Notes: a model not told the origin generated them from the letters alone. A stretch of DNA of 64,000 nt from an uncultured Azospirillum sp. (GCA_947301965.1 CAMYUM010000006.1:1-64000), one strand, 5' to 3'; positions 27,622-39,801 are shown, counted from the stretch's first letter. Made by a program: numbers and translations.

Positions 27622-29256
27622 TTATTTATCCTCTATTGACAACACTGGAATAACACTAAACAACAACCATTTTTTCGTTTCCTTATCTGTTCTCGTTTTG
27701 TGATTTCTTCGCAGAAATTGCTGTAGTTGTCTCCGGTATTTTATCTTGCTAAATACACCAAAATTTTTATATTTAGATACTGGATTTTTCGTGTAGGCTT
27801 CATAATAAGCCTTTTTAATATCTTTATCAACTAGCGTTTGACGTATCAAATCAATAACCATTTGACATATTTTTATGTAATCGGAAAAATGTTTACTCCA
27901 ATTGTTTGTTATCTGCTTCGAGTGTATCCTTCTGAAATATAGAGTTTCTTTGCAAATTCCACAACGTTCAGCAGAAAGTAATGCGTGTGGAAAAAAAACA
28001 TTATCTTCAAAGAACAAATGTGGTGGAAATGTTATATTATTATCTTGCAGAAACTGTCGTCTATAACAGGTAAGACAAGAAGATATTGCCATCCTTGTAA
28101 TAAAACTTTTACATTGTTTATAAGAAAAACATCGAAACTTAAAGTTTTTCGGCAGATATTCAAATTGATAATATGCATTATATTCCTCTTGGCCAGTAGT
28201 ATCATTAACATTAACACCACCATACGATAACATGTCTAAATTATCTAACCTTAAATTGGCATACAGAATATCTAATGTATCTTCTTTAATCCAATCATCC
28301 GCATCTAAAAAGAACACATATGTACCTTTGGCTATCTGCATTGCATTGTTTCGTGAACAAGATAAACCTTGATTTTTTTGGTCTATAATTTTAATGCGCT
28401 TATCTTTTTTAGAATATTCTTTCAAAATCTCAAGTGAGCCATCTGTCGAACCATCATTAACACAAATAATTTCAATATCCTTTAATGTCTGGTTGATAAC
28501 GCTGTCTAAACATTTGGACAGGTATTTTTTGCCGTTATAACAAGCTATTACAATGCTAAATTTTAAAACATCATCTGAAAGGTAGTGACGATCTAAAACA
28601 GAAACTTTTTCTATAATGTGTTTGTTATTATTTCGCCAATCATCACTAATTCCACCTCTGTAAAAATTTGCAATCAAAAAATTTAAATATTTAAAACAAC
28701 AATTTTCTTTACAAAATACAATAAATTTTTCCCAGTCACTTGCAAAACGATAATGTTCATCATACATACCATATTTATCAAATAAACAACGTCTAATAAA
28801 AGAAGCTTGGTGACAAATTGTATTATTTTGAAAATATTTAATGTCAAGTTGGTCTGTATATTTCCGTATCACAGAGGCTCCATCCAGTTCTTTAATTCGA
28901 ACATTGCCATATAGTACATCTGCATTATATTTCCTACCTACAAACACTTTTTCTAAAACATCATTTGCCGCAAAACAATCTCCACCATTCATAAAATTGA
29001 GCCATTCCCCTGTAGCACGCTTAATACCTTTATTCATGGCATTATAAACGCCATTGTCTTTTTCTGAAATAAATATATTAATTCGATTTTTATATTTTTC
29101 TAGAACATCAAGCGTACCATCAGTCGACCCTCCGTCTACTACAATCCATTCAAAACCTTGCCAGCTTTGGTTGATGATACTTTCACATGTACGTTCAATT
29201 TCATCTTTTATATTATAGTATATAGTAATAATGCTCAGTGTGGGAGTGTTTTTCAT
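27622..29256 (-). CDS. Two-domain GT2 glycosyltransferase
   Basis: 544 residues with two consecutive GT-A glycosyltransferase family 2 domains. The first (1-225) starts TPTLSIITIYYNIKDEI and has WIVVDGGSTDGT, a WcaA-like type. The second (232-470) starts FSIVIACYNGKKYLSKCLDS and has CVNDGSTDGS with the metal-binding FFLDADDWI. The protein ends KKWLLFSVIPVLSIEDK, a tail shared with the two upstream glycosyltransferases of different fold. It should add two sugars, or one sugar twice, to a surface glycan. The ATG is at 29256 with GAGGAG upstream, beginning four bases after the preceding stop. Confidence 0.9.
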   Translation of the reverse strand: MKNTPTLSIITIYYNIKDEIERTCESIINQSWQGFEWIVVDGGSTDGTLDVLEKYKNRINIFISEKDNGVYNAMNKGIKRATGEWLNFMNGGDCFAANDVLEKVFVGRKYNADVLYGNVRIKELDGASVIRKYTDQLDIKYFQNNTICHQASFIRRCLFDKYGMYDEHYRFASDWEKFIVFCKENCCFKYLNFLIANFYRGGISDDWRNNNKHIIEKVSVLDRHYLSDDVLKFSIVIACYNGKKYLSKCLDSVINQTLKDIEIICVNDGSTDGSLEILKEYSKKDKRIKIIDQKNQGLSCSRNNAMQIAKGTYVFFLDADDWIKEDTLDILYANLRLDNLDMLSYGGVNVNDTTGQEEYNAYYQFEYLPKNFKFRCFSYKQCKSFITRMAISSCLTCYRRQFLQDNNITFPPHLFFEDNVFFPHALLSAERCGICKETLYFRRIHSKQITNNWSKHFSDYIKICQMVIDLIRQTLVDKDIKKAYYEAYTKNPVSKYKNFGVFSKIKYRRQLQQFLRRNHKTRTDKETKKWLLFSVIPVLSIEDK

Positions 29257-29260
29257 TATC

Positions 29261-30178
29261 TCATTTCTCCTCAATACTTAAAAGTGGTATAAAGCTAAAT
29301 AAAAAATATTTCTGGATTTTCTTTTGAATTATTTTGCGTGACATGTTTATTTGAAATTTATTTTCATAAATTTGAAAAACTAAATCCTTGTTCAAAACAA
29401 CCTTTTTGGGGTGCAAAAGCTTAAAAATCTGTTTTGTTTTTTTATTTAAGTCTCTGTTTCTGCCATTATAGTGTACACCTTCCTCTCCAATATTTGAAAT
29501 CAAACAATGTGCCGGATTAATACATAAACCATCATGTGCTACTATATTAAATGTCCATGGGTATGCCCAAGAATCTATTTCGCCACGTTGTAATTTCTCT
29601 AAAATTTTTCCCCAATATGCCTGCACATTAATGTCATCAGAGAATTTTGCTAATTCTTTCTTGCCGTATTTTGATAAATCTAATGAAAAATATTGCCACC
29701 TGTCAGACCAACTAGCCCAACCCCAGCAATGTTCTATTTTAGCAAAATAATAACTTTCTTTTATATTTGCATCAATCGGTGCATCACCGGCAATGTGCCA
29801 TACACGTTTGTCTTCACGATATTTATTTAACAAATTTTCACAAAATGAGAAAAATGTTAAATCAGGCACACAGTCATCTTCTAAAATAATACCTTCTGGT
29901 TCGTTGGCAAAAAACCACGATACAGCACTTGAAACTCCATACTTGCAACCACCAGAATTTACTTTTAGAAAACGTGTTTTTACATCGCATGGCCAGTTTA
30001 TATGGCTCAAAAGATATTGACGTACTTCTTCTATTTTTTCTTTCTCCCCGTCTTTTTCTGGGCGCGGACCATCAGAAGCAATATATAATCTAGGAGGTTT
30101 TGCTTTAGCAATCATTGCAAAGACGTCTTTTAAATAGTCAAGACGATTAAATGTTAACAATAAGACTGCTGTCTTCAT
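29261..30178 (-). CDS. Glycosyltransferase, HlpA/GNT-I-like GT-A type
   Basis: A 305-residue GT-A enzyme beginning AVLLLTFNRLDYLKDVFAMI, with IASDGPRPEKDGE, the metal-binding IILEDDCVPDLTFF near residue 97, and the acceptor-side CWGWASWSDRWQYF. This pattern matches the glycosyltransferases often annotated hemolytic protein HlpA-like or N-acetylglucosaminyltransferase-like. Donor and acceptor are unknown. The C-terminus QKYFLFSFIPLLSIEEK is a variant of the tail on its neighbours. The ATG directly abuts the GT8 stop codon, with GAGGAC upstream. Confidence 0.85.
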   Translation of the reverse strand: MKTAVLLLTFNRLDYLKDVFAMIAKAKPPRLYIASDGPRPEKDGEKEKIEEVRQYLLSHINWPCDVKTRFLKVNSGGCKYGVSSAVSWFFANEPEGIILEDDCVPDLTFFSFCENLLNKYREDKRVWHIAGDAPIDANIKESYYFAKIEHCWGWASWSDRWQYFSLDLSKYGKKELAKFSDDINVQAYWGKILEKLQRGEIDSWAYPWTFNIVAHDGLCINPAHCLISNIGEEGVHYNGRNRDLNKKTKQIFKLLHPKKVVLNKDLVFQIYENKFQINMSRKIIQKKIQKYFLFSFIPLLSIEEK

Positions 30179-31081
30179 TTATTTGTCCTCTATACTTAAG
30201 ATTGGTAAAATTCCTAACAACTTGTATTTTTTTAATTGGGCGGAAGATACTAAATAAGCGGAAAATTTTTGTTTTACTAGTTTGGCAAACTTTGTTTGTT
30301 GTAAAATCTCATCAAAATCCTCTGATCTTATGCTTTGGGTTTTCCAAGGTTTCTTACCTGTATAGTGTATAACCAATGGTTTTACTTCGCCTCGTTCAGG
30401 ATGTTTTTTCTTCAACATTTCAGAATGATCTGGCATAAAGTTGTAGCGATAATCTAATATCTTGAATTTTCCATCAAATAAAATATTAAAGACATCTTGG
30501 TCAGGACAGCTTAATTTATCAAATAATTGGATAGTTAGTTCTATTAGCTTTTCCTGATATTTATTTTTAATAAACTTTTGAATATCCAAAAGCATTACAC
30601 CGGCATTAAAATATTGATCCCCCCCTCTGTATTTAGGCCATATTTTTTCTTTCAGTGTTGTATAGTTCCCGACATAAAAATCTTCTAACACGGCTCCTAC
30701 CGCATATTTACCTAGATCTTCACTATATAATTCAGCAATATCGCCCTTAATTATTACATCAACATCAATATATATTACTTTACCAAGATTAGGGGCTATT
30801 TCCGGTATAAAATAGCGTGAAAACGTATTTAAGGAATAGTGTTTTAAATTTGGAAACCTGTTTAATCCAAATTTTGACATATCAATGTACCTGATATTTT
30901 TATGCTTAAATTTCTTTAAGCTCTGCATAATAAGTTTTTTGTTTTTTTTGCTTATTCCTCCGTCCATCACATAAAAATCTATGTTTGACTTTGTATGCAT
31001 CAGCATGGAATACATTGTGGTGCATAAAAAAGGTGCATAATTATCATCACATGCTAAAAATACGGGGATTGAAGAGTGCAT
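30179..31081 (-). CDS. GT8 family glycosyltransferase
   Basis: 300 residues of the LgtC/RfaJ type (retaining glucosyl- or galactosyltransferases of LPS and capsules). It starts IPVFLACDDNYAPFLCTTMYS, with the DxD metal motif VIYIDVDVII near residue 105, YFNAGVMLLDI, and the family-typical C-terminal motif VIHYTGKKPWK. It ends KKYKLLGILPILSIEDK, the shared tail. The start has AAAGGG upstream. It is the second gene of a minus-strand operon that begins with the 68-residue motif protein. Confidence 0.9.
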   Translation of the reverse strand: MHSSIPVFLACDDNYAPFLCTTMYSMLMHTKSNIDFYVMDGGISKKNKKLIMQSLKKFKHKNIRYIDMSKFGLNRFPNLKHYSLNTFSRYFIPEIAPNLGKVIYIDVDVIIKGDIAELYSEDLGKYAVGAVLEDFYVGNYTTLKEKIWPKYRGGDQYFNAGVMLLDIQKFIKNKYQEKLIELTIQLFDKLSCPDQDVFNILFDGKFKILDYRYNFMPDHSEMLKKKHPERGEVKPLVIHYTGKKPWKTQSIRSEDFDEILQQTKFAKLVKQKFSAYLVSSAQLKKYKLLGILPILSIEDK

Positions 31082-31093
31082 CAGAGTATCCCT

Positions 31094-31300
31094 TTACATC
31101 AACTTCTTACTTACTTTCATTATGGGGATACCAAGAAAATAATATTTAGTAGTGTTTCCATTGGCCTTTTTGCAACACTTTAAAACAGGAACGCCAAGAA
31201 TTCTCCATGTTTTTTTATCTTTTTTTTCTTTCCAACCATATATTGGCAAAAGTGCAAATAATTTGACTGTTCGTGAATGTATCATAGCCTTTTGTCCCAT
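31094..31300 (-). CDS. 68-residue protein built from three copies of the glycosyltransferase tail motif
   Basis: A small basic protein with no recognised domain. It is almost entirely three units of a module that elsewhere in the window sits at the ends of glycosyltransferases: VKLFALLPIYGWKEKKDK, KTWRILGVPVLKCCKK and TKYYFLGIPIMKVSKK. Each unit is aromatic/basic, then hydrophobic with Gly-Ile/Val-Pro, then basic. AGAAGATAAA precedes the ATG, a weak ribosome binding site. It is 12 bp upstream of the GT8 gene on the same strand, first in the operon. It may be a scaffold or membrane-docking peptide; it could also be the remnant of a larger enzyme. Confidence 0.65.
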   Translation of the reverse strand: MGQKAMIHSRTVKLFALLPIYGWKEKKDKKTWRILGVPVLKCCKKANGNTTKYYFLGIPIMKVSKKLM

Positions 31301-31507: not shown

Positions 31508-34186
31508 ATGATGCCTAAGGTTTCCGTAATTGTACCTGTATATAATGTCGAACAATATTTGAGGCAGTGTTTGGATAGCCTGGTTAATCAAACACTGAAT
31601 GATATCGAGATTGTCTGCATAAACGATGGCTCAACAGATGGCTCACTTGAGATTTTGAAAGAATATTCTAAAAAAGATAGTAGAATCATATTCATTGACA
31701 AAAAAAATGAAGGAGTTTCAGCGGCAAGAAATAAGGGATTGGATATTGCTAAGGGCGAATATGTTGTTTTTTGTGATGGTGATGATTATTATGAACCATC
31801 GTATTGCACAGAAATGTACGATGCAATTACCACAAATAAAGATGTTGACTTAGTTTTATGTGATATAACGGCAAAACACGAAGAAGGTGACAAGCGCGAT
31901 CCCGCAAGATACCGGCATCCTCCATATGTGGGCAAATTAAAGTTAAACGGCTATCTTAAAGCACATATAGGAAGCGTATGGCATATAATGTGTTGTATTT
32001 TTAATAAAGAAGTTATTGACAAATATAAATTAAAATTTCCAAAAGTGAGAACTGCAGAAGACACAGCATTCCTCTGTTGTTATTTAGCAGTAATAAAAAA
32101 TGCATATGGTCTAAAAAAGGCATTATATACATATAGATTAGTGCCAAATTCAACAATGGCTAATGCGTATATATCATCAGATTGTTCTTCTGAAAATCCG
32201 CTTATGGATATGATAATTGCATATAAGTATATTTCAGATTTCCTCAAAATAGAGAATAATTTGAAAAAGAATTGGATATTCGACTTGTTAGAAAGGCGTT
32301 TTTGGGTATTAGATAGGTTTAACATAAGACAAAAAAACATATATTTAGAAAATTTAAATAAAATGCTATTATCCGAAATAGATGCTAGTAGTTTGGAGGC
32401 ATACAGACAATTATATCTTTGTAAACAGCATAACTTTCCCAAACTTTATGAACTAAGAAAAAAAATTGTGCTAGGGAAAGACAAGAAGATAAGTATACTT
32501 GGAATCACCATATATCGAAAAAAAGTAAAAGCAAACAAAAAGAAGTATTATATCTTTGGAATTCGTTATTTAACAAAGAAAATAGAACAAAATATAAAAA
32601 AATATTATTTATTTGGCGTTTTAGTATATAAAAAACGTAATTCAAAAGTTAAACAAAATTCTGAAGCTTGGCCCATATTAGTGGAAAATAGGCATAAAGA
32701 ATTAACTCATTCATTAAATTATACAATATGTTTTGATAGCTTAAGAAACATCTATGTTGATAAAGACAACGCTTGGTTCTTCTTCCAATATTTACAATCT
32801 CAAAATATTCCATCAAAGTTCATTACACTTGATCCAAACTTAAAAGGACAAGATATTGTTTATGTGTCTAGCGAAGATGACTTTTTATTATCACATGTTG
32901 ATTTAATTGCAAATAGCCAAAACGTAGTAACATCTTATGGTCTTTCTGTTGAAAATGGTAGACTTCTTAAATCTCTGACTTGGTTAAAATACATTTTTAT
33001 TGAGCATGGCGTATGTTTATTTAAAAAAGGCTACTTATATAAGCCTGATAGATTTGATGCTATTGTTGCTGCCACCAAGTTAACAAAAGATTTTTATATA
33101 GAGAGAAATGTATGGCCAGAAGCTAGGATTATTCCATGCGGTTTATCTAGATGGGATATGTTAAGAGGCAACAAACAAAAAGAAAATACAATATTTGTAT
33201 TTTTTACATATCGTAGATCTGCTGAAACTAATGAAGAACAATTTGTAAAATATGAAAATTCTATCAAAAAGATTCTACTGCAATTAAAGAAAATATGTGC
33301 CGGTACTAAAATTGTCTGTTGTTTTCATCACAACTTAGCAGGAACCATAACATTTTCGGATTTTGGTGATGATATTACAATAATTTCGGAAAATGATATT
33401 CCATATTGGAAAACTCATGCTTCGATGTGTCTGACCGATTATTCATCAATGGCGTTTGAATTTATGTATCAGGATAAACCAGTAATTTTTTATCGATTTG
33501 ACTATTTTGACTCAACTCTTATACAATATGATCAAACAAATGCATATTCTGCAGCACAAGAAGATGATAAGCTTTATAATGTTTTTTATGATGAAAAATC
33601 CGCAATGGATAAAATTGAATATTATGTTAAGCACAATTTCGAATTAGAGGAAAGATATAAAAAAATTAATAAAACTATTTTTTGGGAACAAGAAAATTGT
33701 TGTTCAGACTTATATAGATTTATATGCAATTTTGATAAGGAATCTCAAAAACCTGAAAAATATTATATAGTTTCAGGAGGTTTTGATCCCATCCATGAAG
33801 GGCATATTGAAATGATAAAAGCCTCGGTGGCTGTATCAGATGGCGTAATTGTGTTAGTCAATTCTGACGAATGGCTTTGTCGAAAGAAAGGTAAAAATTT
33901 CCATACCATAAAGACGCGAAAAGCTATTTTAGAAAATCTAAAGGGCGTAATAGATGTCTTAGAATTTGATGATTCTGATAACTCAGCATGTGATGGGATT
34001 AGAAAAGTTAGAGCTAAATACCCAAATGCGCATTTAGTTTTTGCTAATGGTGGGGATAGAAAAAAAGATAATATACCTGAAGTTTCTGTCTGCGAAGAAT
34101 GTAATGTTGATTTGGCTTTTGGTGTCGGGGGGACAGGTAAAACAAATTCATCTTCATGGATATTAGAAAAATGGAATAAACAGTAA
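31508..34186 (+). CDS. Trifunctional fusion: GT2 glycosyltransferase, CDP-glycerol glycerophosphotransferase, cytidylyltransferase
   Basis: 892 residues. Residues 1-230 form a GT2 domain (VSVIVPVYNVEQYLRQCLDS, CINDGSTDGS, FCDGDDYY). Residues 321-380 hold three tandem basic/aromatic modules (KKISILGITIYRKK, KKKYYIFGIRYLTKK, IKKYYLFGVLVYKK). Residues 400-745 match the TagB/TagF-type glycerophosphotransferase (FIEHGVCLFKKGYL, CFHHNLAG, LTDYSSMAFEFMYQDKPVIF). Residues 752-892 are a nucleotidyltransferase with GGFDPIHEGH and ANGGDRKKDNIPE, near the RfaE2/TagD-like group. Inference: it activates a polyol phosphate with CTP, transfers it and adds sugar. Start ATG ATG follows GAGG; 31511 is equally likely. 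First gene of a plus-strand operon. Confidence 0.9.
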   Translation: MMPKVSVIVPVYNVEQYLRQCLDSLVNQTLNDIEIVCINDGSTDGSLEILKEYSKKDSRIIFIDKKNEGVSAARNKGLDIAKGEYVVFCDGDDYYEPSYCTEMYDAITTNKDVDLVLCDITAKHEEGDKRDPARYRHPPYVGKLKLNGYLKAHIGSVWHIMCCIFNKEVIDKYKLKFPKVRTAEDTAFLCCYLAVIKNAYGLKKALYTYRLVPNSTMANAYISSDCSSENPLMDMIIAYKYISDFLKIENNLKKNWIFDLLERRFWVLDRFNIRQKNIYLENLNKMLLSEIDASSLEAYRQLYLCKQHNFPKLYELRKKIVLGKDKKISILGITIYRKKVKANKKKYYIFGIRYLTKKIEQNIKKYYLFGVLVYKKRNSKVKQNSEAWPILVENRHKELTHSLNYTICFDSLRNIYVDKDNAWFFFQYLQSQNIPSKFITLDPNLKGQDIVYVSSEDDFLLSHVDLIANSQNVVTSYGLSVENGRLLKSLTWLKYIFIEHGVCLFKKGYLYKPDRFDAIVAATKLTKDFYIERNVWPEARIIPCGLSRWDMLRGNKQKENTIFVFFTYRRSAETNEEQFVKYENSIKKILLQLKKICAGTKIVCCFHHNLAGTITFSDFGDDITIISENDIPYWKTHASMCLTDYSSMAFEFMYQDKPVIFYRFDYFDSTLIQYDQTNAYSAAQEDDKLYNVFYDEKSAMDKIEYYVKHNFELEERYKKINKTIFWEQENCCSDLYRFICNFDKESQKPEKYYIVSGGFDPIHEGHIEMIKASVAVSDGVIVLVNSDEWLCRKKGKNFHTIKTRKAILENLKGVIDVLEFDDSDNSACDGIRKVRAKYPNAHLVFANGGDRKKDNIPEVSVCEECNVDLAFGVGGTGKTNSSSWILEKWNKQ

Positions 34187-34228: not shown

Positions 34229-35671
34229 ATGCTATTTAATTCATTGACATTTATACTATTATTTTTGCCAGTAGTGGTAATTATATACTATTACTTGATA
34301 GCAAAAAGAATCATAGTGGGAGCTCGAGTGTGGCTAGTCGGAGCGTCTCTGTTTTTTTATGCTTTTTGGAATGTTTATTATTTGCCATTAATTCTGATAT
34401 CAATTGCAATGAATTTTACATTAGGTTCAACAATTTCTTCGAAAGATGTACGTTTAAATAAACGTACATTATTAATCTGGGGCATTATATTGAATGTTTG
34501 TGCTCTAGGATATTTTAAATATACAGATTTTATGATTTCCAACATCAATTGGATTTTTCATATTGAAATTCCATTGCAACATATTGTATTACCATTAGCA
34601 ATATCGTTCTTTACGTTTCAGCAAATAGCTTATCTTGTTGATTGTTATAAAGGGATAACTAAAGAATATGATATTTTGCAATATGCTTTGTTTGTATCTT
34701 TCTTTCCTCAGCTTATTGCAGGTCCGATTGTTGCTCATTACGAGATGATGCCACAGTTTGTTAGAACTTCGAATTTGGTAAAAAATTATCACAATATTTT
34801 GCTTGGAATTTTAATCTTTGTTATCGGTTTATTTAAGAAAATTGTTATCGCTGATACGTGTGCCAAGTATGCTACAATAGGCTTTGACCAACTGCCTAAT
34901 TTGACATTTTGGGGAGGATGGTTTACTTCACTTTCATACACTGCACAAATTTATTTTGATTTCAGTGGTTATTGTGACATGGCCATAGGTTGCGCCCTAC
35001 TGTTTAATATCAAACTACCAATTAACTTTAATAGTCCATACAAAGCATTGAATATTCAAGATTTTTGGCGACGTTGGCATATTACATTATCACGTTTTCT
35101 GCGAGATTATCTTTATATTCCGTTGGGCGGAAATCGCAAGGGTGAAATGCGCACTTGTGCCAATGTATTTACCGTATTTTTAATTGGCGGATTGTGGCAT
35201 GGCGCCGCTTGGACTTTTGTAATTTGGGGTATGTTACATGGTGTGGCAAATATAGTATTTCGTTTGTGGTCAAAAGTTGGGTTCACACTCAATAAATTTG
35301 TAGCTTGGTTACTCACATTAAATTTTATCAACCTGAGCTGGGTATTTTTCCGCGCTAATAGTTTTGATTCCGCCTTAAAAGTTATAAAGGCAATGTTTGA
35401 CGTTTCGTCGTTTACAAACAAACCCTGGTGGCGTATGAAATATTATTTAACAGATTTTGGTGTGCGGTCAAACGCTTTCTATGCTCTTGTTATATTGATT
35501 ATTCTATGTACCATATTGCCTAATTCTGTGCAGATCTTACAAAAGTTATCACTTATCAGAAACAAGAGAATTATTATCTCGTTTTCGTTAATATTAGCTT
35601 TAATCTCATTTGCTCTGCTGATAAAAATGATAGTGATTCCGTACAGCGAGTTTATTTACTTCAATTTTTAG
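34229..35671 (+). CDS. MBOAT family O-acyltransferase (AlgI/DltB-like)
   Basis: A 480-residue polytopic membrane protein that should move acyl groups across the inner membrane to a surface polymer. Signatures: SFFPQLIAGPIVAHYEMMPQ, YFDFSGYCDMAIG, NIQDFWRRWHITLSRFLRDY, YIPLGGNRKG, and GGLWHGAAWTFVIWGMLHG with the catalytic His. About ten to eleven membrane spans. It is followed 10 bp later by an SGNH-like partner, as in algI-algJ/X and dltB-dltD pairs. O-acetylation of the island's polymer is the likely role. Confidence 0.93.
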   Translation: MLFNSLTFILLFLPVVVIIYYYLIAKRIIVGARVWLVGASLFFYAFWNVYYLPLILISIAMNFTLGSTISSKDVRLNKRTLLIWGIILNVCALGYFKYTDFMISNINWIFHIEIPLQHIVLPLAISFFTFQQIAYLVDCYKGITKEYDILQYALFVSFFPQLIAGPIVAHYEMMPQFVRTSNLVKNYHNILLGILIFVIGLFKKIVIADTCAKYATIGFDQLPNLTFWGGWFTSLSYTAQIYFDFSGYCDMAIGCALLFNIKLPINFNSPYKALNIQDFWRRWHITLSRFLRDYLYIPLGGNRKGEMRTCANVFTVFLIGGLWHGAAWTFVIWGMLHGVANIVFRLWSKVGFTLNKFVAWLLTLNFINLSWVFFRANSFDSALKVIKAMFDVSSFTNKPWWRMKYYLTDFGVRSNAFYALVILIILCTILPNSVQILQKLSLIRNKRIIISFSLILALISFALLIKMIVIPYSEFIYFNF

Positions 35672-35681
35672 GGGAAGTATA

Positions 35682-36752
35682 TTGTATAAATCTGCGATTA
35701 AAACATATCTGATAACATTATTGGTACTGATAGCCGGTTTTTATGCCATAATTTTCGTTTCTGATCCGTATATGTTGTTCCATAAGCATTGGTTTCATCA
35801 AAACAAAATGTATAATAATATGCGTATCCAAAATTACGGACTGATAAAATTCGGCAAATTTGATGGGATAATCATCGGAACATCAATGCTTGAAAATACA
35901 TCCGCAGATGAAGCAACAAAAAAATTTAATAATGTACGGTTTGCCAATCTGTCTGTTTCCGGAGGAAGCTACTACGAACGTTTTAAAATTTTGAATATGG
36001 CTCTAAAAACTAAAAAAATCAAACATGTAATTATGTCTTTTGATTATAACTTTTCTCGTTCTGGAAAAATCAACACGACTTTTGAACCTTCACTATATTC
36101 TTGGAATTCTATCATTGGAAAAGCAAAAATTTATTCTACGAATAAAGCACTGAGGTGTATATTCCTCAACAAACAATGTGATTTTATTAAATTTGATATT
36201 AATCATCCAAAAGCATGGTATGCAAAAAAAATACATAATCGACGCTTTGGTGGATTTGATAATTGGATTAAATTTTGTAAAGATGATCAAATTAAAGATG
36301 CTTTTGAACAATTAAAATCAGAAAACAATGATTACAGTGTTATGATGGCGTATTACAAAGAAGTGATTAACAAGGAAATTATACCTCTATTACAGCATGA
36401 AAAAACGACATTTTCAATCATTATTCCACCGTACAGTATGCTTTGGTGGGGGAAGCGTAAAGCTTCTCTATCCGAGCTGTTTGAACCATACGTGTATTTA
36501 ATTCAGAAAACCGCCGCTTATAAAAATGTCAAGATTTATTGGTTTTATGATGAAAATTATGTGTCTGATATCACAAAATACAAGGATTTAACACACTATC
36601 ATCATTCCATAAACTCGTTACAACTTGATGCAATAAAAAATGGTACCAACATAATCAACTCAAATAATTACCAAGAAAAGTTTACATCATTCAGAGATAA
36701 AATTAATAATTTTGATATACAATCTTACATTGATAAAATTACAAACTTCTAA
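35682..36752 (+). CDS. SGNH/AlgX-like partner of the MBOAT acyltransferase
   Basis: 356 residues with one N-terminal membrane anchor (YLITLLVLIAGFYAIIFV) and an extracytoplasmic domain. GIIIGTSMLENTSADEA resembles the GDS block of SGNH hydrolases, with Ser in GTSM. The far motif YKDLTHYHHSINSLQLDAI supplies an Asp-x-x-His as in the third block. The position after MBOAT fits the second component of polymer O-acetylation, like AlgJ/AlgX or DltD. The start is TTG with AGGGGAAG upstream. The family assignment rests on motifs and position. Confidence 0.75.
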   Translation: MYKSAIKTYLITLLVLIAGFYAIIFVSDPYMLFHKHWFHQNKMYNNMRIQNYGLIKFGKFDGIIIGTSMLENTSADEATKKFNNVRFANLSVSGGSYYERFKILNMALKTKKIKHVIMSFDYNFSRSGKINTTFEPSLYSWNSIIGKAKIYSTNKALRCIFLNKQCDFIKFDINHPKAWYAKKIHNRRFGGFDNWIKFCKDDQIKDAFEQLKSENNDYSVMMAYYKEVINKEIIPLLQHEKTTFSIIIPPYSMLWWGKRKASLSELFEPYVYLIQKTAAYKNVKIYWFYDENYVSDITKYKDLTHYHHSINSLQLDAIKNGTNIINSNNYQEKFTSFRDKINNFDIQSYIDKITNF

Positions 36753-36923: not shown

Positions 36924-37997
36924 ATGAAGCCTAAAGTTTCGGTAATTGTGCCTGTCTACAATGTTAAAGCGTATTTGTCTCAGTGTTTGGATAGCTTGGT
37001 TAATCAGACGCTAAAAGATATAGAAATCGTATGCGTGGATGATGCTTCGACCGATGGCTCGCTACGAGTATTAGAAGAATATTCTAAAAAAGACAATCGA
37101 TTAGTTGTAATAACACAACAAATAAATCGCGGTGTCGGCGTTGCGAGAAATGTGGCTCTTGAGGCGGCTAGCGGCGATTATATTATGTTTTGCGATCCAG
37201 ATGACTGGTATGAACTCAATGCTTGCGAAGTTGCATATAATCAAATAGTAAAAAATAAAAATGATGTGGTTGTCTTTAACTTTAGGCAATATAGCGAGAA
37301 AAACAAAAATTACAGAGACTGCGATTGGAGAATTTTGCCGTTTAGAAGGCAATTTAATAATCCCAATATTATACTGAGCGATGTGCCAAATTATATGCAG
37401 GCACCATATGCATGGGCGCAAATATATTCAAGAAAATATATAAATAAAAACAATATCAGATTTGCAGATCAAAGACTTTGCGAAGATGTAATATTCTACG
37501 TAAAGGCGATGGTGAGTGCAAATAATATATCTGTAATAACAGATCCTTTGTATGTTTATAGGGCAAGAGAAGGCTCTATCTCACATAACTATAATATTTA
37601 TTGGGCTGATTTGTTTAAGGCAAGATATGACTGTCTAGCATTTTTGGAACAACAACACGATAAGAAATGTGTATACCCATTCCTGATATATTCATTCAAT
37701 ACGCTATCTAACTGGTATAACTTAATCAATAAAAAGAAACCCAAAATAGCAAAAGATTTCTATGCTGAAATTAAAAAATATTACCAGCTGTTGGTGGCAA
37801 AATATGATATCAGCTCTATAGCTCAATATATCAATAATTATGATGAAATTATGTTTATATGCAATAATTCGTGGAAACAAAAAATAATAAAAGACTTCTT
37901 CAGAGCGCTTTTTTATATAAGAGTGACAAATGACCGCAAAATCATAAGTGTGTTGGGCATAAAAATTAAGATGAAATTGCAAAAAATAACAGATTAG
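36924..37997 (+). CDS. GT2 family glycosyltransferase
   Basis: 357 residues, with its GT2 domain clearly paralogous to the N-terminus of the 892-residue fusion (KVSVIVPVYNVKAYLSQCLDS against its VSVIVPVYNVEQYLRQCLDS). It has CVDDASTDGS and MFCDPDDWYE, and FADQRLCEDVIFYVKAM as the catalytic-base region. The C-terminus RKIISVLGIKIKMKLQK is one more copy of the short module. Acceptor and donor are unknown. GGTGAG lies upstream of the ATG. The gene is AT-rich like the rest of the island and starts a three-gene operon with tagD and a glycerophosphotransferase. Confidence 0.9.
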   Translation: MKPKVSVIVPVYNVKAYLSQCLDSLVNQTLKDIEIVCVDDASTDGSLRVLEEYSKKDNRLVVITQQINRGVGVARNVALEAASGDYIMFCDPDDWYELNACEVAYNQIVKNKNDVVVFNFRQYSEKNKNYRDCDWRILPFRRQFNNPNIILSDVPNYMQAPYAWAQIYSRKYINKNNIRFADQRLCEDVIFYVKAMVSANNISVITDPLYVYRAREGSISHNYNIYWADLFKARYDCLAFLEQQHDKKCVYPFLIYSFNTLSNWYNLINKKKPKIAKDFYAEIKKYYQLLVAKYDISSIAQYINNYDEIMFICNNSWKQKIIKDFFRALFYIRVTNDRKIISVLGIKIKMKLQKITD

Positions 37998-38008
37998 AGG
38001 ACTAAATA

Positions 38009-38398
38009 ATGAAACGGGTAATTACATACGGAACATTTGATGTATTGCACTACGGCCATATAAATCTCCTTAAACGAGCAAGGGCGTTGGGAGATTATCT
38101 TATTGTGGTACTATCAACCGATGAGTTTAATAAAGTTAAAAATAAGCAATCATTTTATACGTACGAACAGCGGAAAATGATTTTGGAAGCGTGTCGTTAT
38201 GTAGATTTGGTGGTGCCAGAATATAATTGGGAACAGAAGATTGACGATGTAAAAAAATATCAGGCAGATATCTTTGTTATGGGTGATGACTGGAAAGGTA
38301 AATTCGACTTTTTGAAGGATTACTGCGAGGTTGTATATCTGCCACGAACCCCTGATGTTTGTTCGACTAAAACTAAAGAATATTTAAGAAAAAAATAG
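38009..38398 (+). CDS. tagD: Glycerol-3-phosphate cytidylyltransferase
   Basis: A 129-residue TagD/GCT-type enzyme making CDP-glycerol from CTP and sn-glycerol-3-phosphate. Signatures: TYGTFDVLHYGHINLLKRA with the HxGH nucleotide motif, FYTYEQRKMILEACRYVD, FVMGDDWKGKFD, and LPRTPDVCSTKTKEYL, where the STTKIK-type motif appears as STKTK. The length is exactly that of the family. GAGGAC precedes the ATG. CDP-glycerol synthesis implies a glycerol-phosphate-containing polymer. Confidence 0.92.
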   Translation: MKRVITYGTFDVLHYGHINLLKRARALGDYLIVVLSTDEFNKVKNKQSFYTYEQRKMILEACRYVDLVVPEYNWEQKIDDVKKYQADIFVMGDDWKGKFDFLKDYCEVVYLPRTPDVCSTKTKEYLRKK

Positions 38399-38409: not shown

Positions 38410-39801
38410 ATGACTATAGCAGACATTGTTACTACACATATTGGCGATTTAACCATTACTAAATATAGATTATTTGGTTATACATTGCTCTGTCATACAA
38501 AAGATATCAAAAAACAAGAAATTAAAATATTTTGTTTCAAACTAAAATTTAAGCATTCAAATAGAGCCAAAAATGTTATTAATAAAGACGCTTTGGCTGA
38601 TGAATATCAGAACGCCATCTTAAAAATTCGCCAAAAGATTAATAATGGCAATAAAGTCAGAGTTATCTTTCTGGTAAATATGGCAAGTATGTTCCCTGCC
38701 GAAAATCTGATGAGAGAAATGCTTAAAGACAATATATTTGATGTTAAACTCTATATTATCCCCGATATAAGGTTTGGTAAAAAAGACATGGTTACCAGTA
38801 TAGAGGCAACTTATTATGAATTATCCAAGAAATATGACTTTGCAAAGATGGCTGTCAAATTTGATAGAAATAGAGAAATATCCGAGTGGGATGATGTAGT
38901 AAATAATGCAGATATAGTTTGTTACCCGTCGCCATATGATTTATCGTACTCACCTTATAATCCGTATTATGCTGCGAAAAATGGAATTTTATCGATACAT
39001 ATCGATTATGGTTTCCTGCGTTCTAAATATGACAGACTGATTTATCAAAGCGATAACTATAATAACTTTTGGAAAGTGTTTATAGAAACCGAATTAAACC
39101 GTGAAGAATATTATAATTATGGTCAATGCAAAGCTTCAAACGCCATCGTTACCGGATATGCCAAAATGGATAGTCTGGCACAGTATAAACACATAAATAC
39201 TAGCAAAAAAACTATTATTATTGCTCCTCATCACAGCGTAGAAGGGGGTACAAATCATATATTAGCGTTATCTAATTTTGAAGCATATGCTGACTTATTC
39301 TTAAAAATTCCTGAAATGTATCCTGATATTGATTTTGTTTTTCGCCCTCACCCGGTACTGTTCAAAATTTTAAGACGGAAAAAACACTGGGGAGATAAAC
39401 GTGTTGAAGAATATTTGAACAAAATGACATCTCTAAGAAATGTTACTTATAGTACTGCTGGAGATTATTTAGAAATTTTTGCTAAATCTGATGGTATAAT
39501 ACAAGATTGTGGCTCATATTTGGTAGAGTACTTCTATACGAAAAAGCCTTGCTGTTATATGCTTAAATCTCCGTCAGATATTGAAAATAAATTCTCAGGG
39601 CTCGGAAAACAATGCCTTGATAATTGTTACATTGCATACAATCAAGAAGACATTCTGGATTTCTTGAACAATGTGATTGTAAAAGGTATTGATCCTAAAA
39701 AACGAGAACGTGAGCAATTTGCCGAAGAACAAGTAATGATTAATTATCCTCATGCGTCTGCTAAGATAATTAGCGAGATTAAAAACATAGTGCTGAAATA
39801 A
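38410..39801 (+). CDS. CDP-glycerol glycerophosphotransferase-like protein
   Basis: 463 residues. The C-terminal 300 show the glycerophosphotransferase/capsule-polymerase pattern: IIAPHHSVEGG, DFVFRPHPVLFKIL, and DGIIQDCGSYLVEYFYTKKP, which corresponds to the TDYSS...EF...KP motif of TagF. The N-terminal 50 residues carry two copies of the island's module (ITKYRLFGYTLLCHTK and IKIFCFKLKFKH). It probably adds glycerol phosphate from CDP-glycerol made by the adjacent TagD-like enzyme. AGAGG precedes the ATG. Last gene of the island; it ends 8 bp before the convergent mazG-like gene. Confidence 0.85.
   Translation: MTIADIVTTHIGDLTITKYRLFGYTLLCHTKDIKKQEIKIFCFKLKFKHSNRAKNVINKDALADEYQNAILKIRQKINNGNKVRVIFLVNMASMFPAENLMREMLKDNIFDVKLYIIPDIRFGKKDMVTSIEATYYELSKKYDFAKMAVKFDRNREISEWDDVVNNADIVCYPSPYDLSYSPYNPYYAAKNGILSIHIDYGFLRSKYDRLIYQSDNYNNFWKVFIETELNREEYYNYGQCKASNAIVTGYAKMDSLAQYKHINTSKKTIIIAPHHSVEGGTNHILALSNFEAYADLFLKIPEMYPDIDFVFRPHPVLFKILRRKKHWGDKRVEEYLNKMTSLRNVTYSTAGDYLEIFAKSDGIIQDCGSYLVEYFYTKKPCCYMLKSPSDIENKFSGLGKQCLDNCYIAYNQEDILDFLNNVIVKGIDPKKREREQFAEEQVMINYPHASAKIISEIKNIVLK

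Follow-up and report, generated by a model that had tools for sequence, protein, structure and literature searches.

Three adjoining minus-strand genes in a 64,000-nucleotide stretch of DNA from an uncultured Azospirillum sp. (termed here the window) encode glycosyltransferases of different folds or families that end in a common tail, and so raise the question of what such an appendage might contribute to its carriers. The genes specify a 550-residue two-domain GT2 enzyme (27622-29274, minus strand; PF00535 in two stretches), a 305-residue putative glycosyltransferase named HlpA-like in a preliminary description of the locus (29261-30178, minus strand; no Pfam match), and a 300-residue GT8 enzyme (30179-31081, minus strand; Glyco_transf_8, PF01501, E 1.5e-50, residues 7-248). 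Their C-terminal ends, respectively KKWLLFSVIPVLSIEDK, QKYFLFSFIPLLSIEEK and KKYKLLGILPILSIEDK, bear SIEDK, SIEEK and SIEDK tails, each a single repeat encoded on the minus strand at 27625-27690, 29264-29332 and 30182-30244. In whole-protein BLASTP comparisons the tail provided the top alignment for all three pairs of enzymes (E 4e-4, 8e-4 and 6e-3), in agreement with the original observation. Identical codons occur at 4/10, 5/8 and 5/8 shared tail residues in the three pairs, a paucity that rules out recent DNA duplication and bears out the earlier proposal of selection at the level of protein sequence. A profile built only from the tails of other genomes recovered the window tails at E 5e-9, 1e-7 and 2e-4; its next match (E 0.06) was a neighbouring ORF with internal copies, and its best score against reversed sequences was E 0.57. 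We regard it as highly probable that the module is genuine and is maintained by selection.

Further copies, occurring in tandem, internally, at N-termini and as a stand-alone gene, identify each tail as a single copy of a mobile repeat module, about 18-20 residues in length, with the consensus K-x-[YW]-x-[LI]-[LF]-[GSD]-x-[IL]-P-[LIV]-[LF]-[SK]-[IV]-x-x-K. Interrogating the window with a profile of the tails revealed copies in the same cluster that the preliminary description had overlooked. An 892-residue protein (31508-34186, plus strand) combines, in this order, a GT2 domain, a three-repeat linker, a CDP-glycerol glycerophosphotransferase-like domain and a cytidylyltransferase-like domain; its three tandem internal repeats (32462-32647, plus strand), lying between the GT2 and Glyphos_transf domains, scored E 1.8e-5, 6.5e-7 and 2.6e-8 against a profile of which these copies themselves form part. 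A 357-residue GT2 enzyme (36924-37997, plus strand) has a more divergent C-terminal repeat, and a GT-B-like transferase (38410-39801, plus strand; weak match to NCBIfam BFO_1060) carries an N-terminal one at 38440-38508. A TagD-like cytidylyltransferase (38009-38398, plus strand), a soluble precursor enzyme, lacks the repeat and serves as an internal negative control. Also without the repeat are an MBOAT acyltransferase gene and the gene following it, itself without a Pfam match (together 34229-36752, plus strand); the two may form a pair that O-acylates the glycan of this cluster. Outside the cluster, the same genome encodes a GT2 protein ending in four repeat copies and a 1430-residue protein with N-terminal and internal copies.

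A tail that was a conserved part of each catalytic family everywhere, unrelated to genomic context, would have refuted the proposal, as the preliminary description recognised. Searched with a profile of eight rows built on the three-copy form, 106 genomes out of 153 in the order, which we take to be RF32, proved to have the module. With a 24-row profile it was found in 12 of 386 genomes sampled from the class (families f1, f53, f66, f69, f84, f85 and f110) and in one of 398 sampled from the phylum, that one being the genome described here. Since PF00535 was detected in 14/14 control genomes, the tail is not tied to its catalytic families everywhere; nor is it a conserved part of the GT2 or GT8 family, the other GT2 proteins examined in the same genome being free of the repeat. 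Among 297 genomes of Bacteroidota (the phylum of a Flavobacterium), the 24-row profile gave a single marginal match, in a 53-residue frame, which was judged to be chance. Broad dispersal over many phyla was likewise not supported: the exact pattern KYYLFGIP, sought in 84,980 species, returned 12 stretches, of which seven lie in long enzyme-like frames, five of these in records of Alphaproteobacteria or a proteobacterium. One long-frame stretch, cut by a contig end, came from Gilliamella, and a profile search of that genome gave no match. Viral contigs, phages and plasmids yielded only short chance frames or matches at E 5-9, and GT8 relatives sought in viral contigs to deepen the alignment were not found. 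As located by these searches and in the stretches around their matches, a procedure that may miss divergent copies, the module sits mostly in gut Alphaproteobacteria.

The enzymes that carry it are diverse. We picked 76 carriers by the repeat alone, independent of the catalytic domain, and scanned them against Pfam. The families retrieved, which overlap within proteins, were GT2 (38), GT8 (14), the GT4 group (7), TupA-like (4), pyruvyl transferase, GT32-like and Caps_synth (3 each), and RgpF, DUF4422 and CDP-glycerol transferase (2 each), together with a few matches to aldo-keto reductase, FrhB-like and HAD proteins; Stealth proteins and a hexapeptide acyltransferase are additional carriers within the clusters. 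Not every carrier is a transferase: one aldo-keto reductase (L038:6799-7899, plus strand) ends in two repeats. No tail was found on two cytidylyltransferases scanned from the clusters, nor on similar ones in three further genomes (G122, G107 and G111). With transferases represented so widely and cytidylyltransferases excluded, most carriers would be expected, from their family assignments, to act on the glycan chain. Among the SIEEK-type tails considered below, similarity does not depend on the enzyme that bears the tail: sequence identity is 67% between tails on the same family in other genomes, 69% between different families in other genomes, and 70% between different families within one genome. 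The repeat is mostly C-terminal, sometimes N-terminal or in a linker. In two related genomes (L092:6943-7632, minus strand, and L180) a SIEEK-type repeat occupies the N-terminus of the hexapeptide acyltransferase, encoded directly after a small gene of the kind described next; this N-terminal copy weakens the notion that a free C-terminus is what is recognised.

Directly upstream of the GT8 gene, and first in the minus-strand operon, an unannotated gene (31094-31300, minus strand) encodes a 68-residue protein consisting of three repeat copies only, a candidate hub for the tailed enzymes. Stand-alone three-copy ORFs of 68-73 residues occur in about 15 of the 153 genomes of the order, usually first in an operon and directly upstream of a tailed enzyme, while the surrounding genes vary and the wider neighbourhoods are unrelated (ftsY, clpX, glycogen genes and a valS-like gene, as named from sequence). 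Pairwise dN/dS among homologues is 0.02-0.34, indicating purifying selection (0.023 at dS 1.4 for the pair from G102 and G122), and a Shine-Dalgarno-like site precedes most of these ORFs, that of the window copy being weak. The encoded proteins are strongly basic, with net charges of +8 to +19, and contain aromatic and hydrophobic residues. Related arrangements were also encountered. In G084, of the same genus, a three-hairpin sequence that begins with an internal ATG lies in frame behind a GT8 domain (L079:7123-8415, plus strand), from which we conclude that fission or fusion has occurred. Three proteins of 140-166 residues (L083:6864-7361 and L104:645-1079, plus strand; L105:3460-3879, minus strand) consist of three repeats and, after them, a segment that looks like a coiled coil; they are possible scaffolds. 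A 112-residue protein (L107:3110-3445, minus strand), seemingly made of divergent repeats only and probably more than three of them, adjoins a repeat-bearing GT2 protein.

In the genomes of the order, one form of the tail was found beside this small gene only. Defining strong SIEEK-type tails by profile A7 at E<1e-7, we found 29 in 10 of the 153 genomes; all lie on the same contig as a three-copy ORF, all within 7.9 kb of it, at a median distance of 1.9 kb. One tail (G087:C60; E 7.7e-8, two tandem copies, in a genome without a detected three-copy ORF) was omitted because its end is not of the SIEEK form and it resembles the multi-copy tails of many other genomes; its inclusion would give 29/30. 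All ten SIEEK-type genomes fall among the 15 that have the three-copy ORF (hypergeometric 2e-12, a value that ignores kinship, eight of the ten belonging to one genus and two to another). The preliminary description had offered two functions for the tail, one of them that of a tag to which a common partner binds; the candidate for that partner is now the three-repeat protein, whose gene accompanies each of the strong SIEEK-type tails detected, its standing as partner being a prediction.

The other suggested function, an amphipathic membrane anchor, lost ground in its helical form. Helical hydrophobic moments at 100 degrees are low for the three window tails (0.10-0.17), and the model of the three-copy protein contains beta structure only; an amphipathic helix is therefore not favoured. 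AlphaFold2, given a 12-row alignment of the 68-residue protein, predicted six beta strands in three hairpins (mean pLDDT 81.7, pTM 0.60), whereas the single tail modelled with its GT2 domain fell below pLDDT 50. The hairpin form is accordingly well supported, as a model, for the three-copy protein, and for each lone tail it is extrapolated from that model. Foldseek comparison of the three-hairpin model with the PDB gave no significant match; the best by probability were several TarM entries, matched in the beta-sheet region (0.99-1.00; TM-score about 0.54 over 44 aligned columns), at E 0.38-1.1, so that the likeness may be that of any beta-meander. Eight of ten repeat-only proteins scanned matched no Pfam family at E<=1, and the remaining two gave sub-threshold chance matches to unrelated families, none of them DUF1975, the domain of TarM. 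A profile search of PDB sequences produced two chance matches (E 0.37 and 1.3) and likewise no assignment to DUF1975. No covering model was found in Pfam, NCBIfam or PHROGs, and literature searches found no paper containing the motif strings or describing such a shared tail.

We favour the interpretation, with a probability of roughly one half, that the repeat is a beta-hairpin assembly tag that mediates docking, supplemented in some clusters by a dedicated three-hairpin hub. The hairpin would act as a docking element on glycan-building enzymes, the tails of different enzymes adding edge strands to one another or to the three-hairpin protein, and could thereby keep the transferases of a given pathway assembled at the inner membrane, the site at which the lipid-linked glycan is built. 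In SIEEK-type clusters, that of the window included, the basic three-hairpin protein would serve as the dedicated hub, to which the tails may present an acidic partner surface in their S-I-E-E/D-K end. More tentatively, and at rather less than even odds, we envisage a modular assembly code, in which a tag on transferases of many folds is matched in some clusters by a cognate three-tag hub and organises glycan-assembly complexes of gut Alphaproteobacteria, in the manner of dockerins but inside the cell. Counting against docking, most of the 106 genomes with the module have no detected hub (about 15 have the stand-alone protein), so that docking cannot in general depend on a hub, and some stand-alone ORFs have no glycosyltransferase neighbour (G101:C13, G012:C38 and G122:C10).

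The absence of a hub from many genomes presents no difficulty for a second explanation, that aromatic, hydrophobic and basic hairpins lie at the membrane interface in the inner leaflet and bring otherwise soluble enzymes to a lipid-linked acceptor; the three-hairpin protein would then be either a more strongly binding form of this anchor or a landing site on the membrane. The composition and strong positive charge of the stand-alone proteins are in keeping with this, and weigh against docking in that such charge would suit membrane or polyanion binding as well; so too are the presumably lipid-linked acceptors of the carriers and the tail-free state of soluble precursor enzymes. Membrane-targeting C-terminal elements are moreover known on glycosyltransferases: TagA, of the WecB/TagA/CpsF family, requires an extra C-terminal segment for membrane association (PMC6493773). 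That appendage, however, comprises three helices, is confined to one enzyme family and completes the active site, while the repeat is predicted to be beta-structured and is common to many families. Known anchors are helices, and helical amphipathicity here is low. SIEEK-type tails are also nearly neutral (the three window tails carry net charges of 0 to +2) with conserved acidic residues at the end, which is unusual for binding to anionic membranes, and anchoring leaves their restriction to the vicinity of the small gene unexplained. We consider it a serious but somewhat unlikely alternative. The same linkage and the same acidic ends are unaccounted for if the repeat instead binds the acceptor, a basic beta-sheet that grips the lengthening chain, which may be a glycerol-phosphate polymer, and so raises processivity. 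Such a role has been proposed for extra domains of TarS and SdgB: polymer binding is suggested for the trimerisation domains of TarS (PMC5156392), and the DUF1975 of SdgB has a positive groove in which the acceptor is bound (PMC8561734); and the CDP-glycerol transferase and cytidylyltransferase domains encoded in the window cluster suggest a phosphate-containing polymer. A single tail of 17 residues is nonetheless small for a carbohydrate-binding module, and the gene sets of the carriers differ so widely in composition that their polymers presumably differ as well, which together make this improbable.

The tails might, finally, be an evolutionary residue, having spread by fusion and recombination within one family of clusters, with the small ORF as the surviving tail of a lost transferase. 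The in-frame arrangement in G084 and the apparent tendency of the clusters to move and swap genes would fit such a history. Yet the start region, length and sequence of the small ORF are kept in about a dozen genomes, at the low dN/dS values given above, most copies have ribosome-binding-like sites, and the tails are alike across families despite few common codons; purifying selection largely refutes this reading, which we judge very improbable.

An assembly tag of the kind we favour has parallels in known systems, none of them exact. In cohesin-dockerin pairs and in the docking domains of polyketide synthases, various enzymes carry one short module in common, which meets a partner with repeated or matching modules; here the setting is cytoplasmic glycan synthesis, the interaction is predicted, and the likeness drawn is one of arrangement. 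A further parallel is the DUF1975 of TarM, GtfA/GtfB and SdgA/SdgB, a beta-sheet module added to glycosyltransferases, as the repeat is predicted to be, whose insertion contributes to oligomer assembly in TarM and GtfA/GtfB (PMC8561734). It is, however, a single domain of ten strands, larger than the repeat and inserted in GT-B enzymes, where it serves homo- or hetero-oligomers, whereas the present unit is of about 18 residues, repeated, terminal, attached to many unrelated folds and found also as a stand-alone gene. Recruitment of glycan-assembly enzymes to the membrane by a gathering protein is described for WbdD-WbdA and related complexes of O-antigen assembly (PMC11231755). In that case one polymerase is brought in by one protein, a coiled coil equipped with an amphipathic helix; here a small repeat tag is common to many enzymes. 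MORN and other beta-hairpin repeats likewise form open sheets from short tandem hairpins, and MORN proteins appear among the weak structural matches of the three-hairpin model, but the present sequences match no repeat family in Pfam at E<=1.

How separate glycosyltransferases are ordered into one membrane pathway is poorly understood, and few scaffolds are known. The stand-alone gene described here is so short that gene callers may overlook it. As a sequence signature, the repeat marks glycan genes in uncultured gut bacteria, including enzymes that, like the HlpA-like protein, may have no Pfam match.
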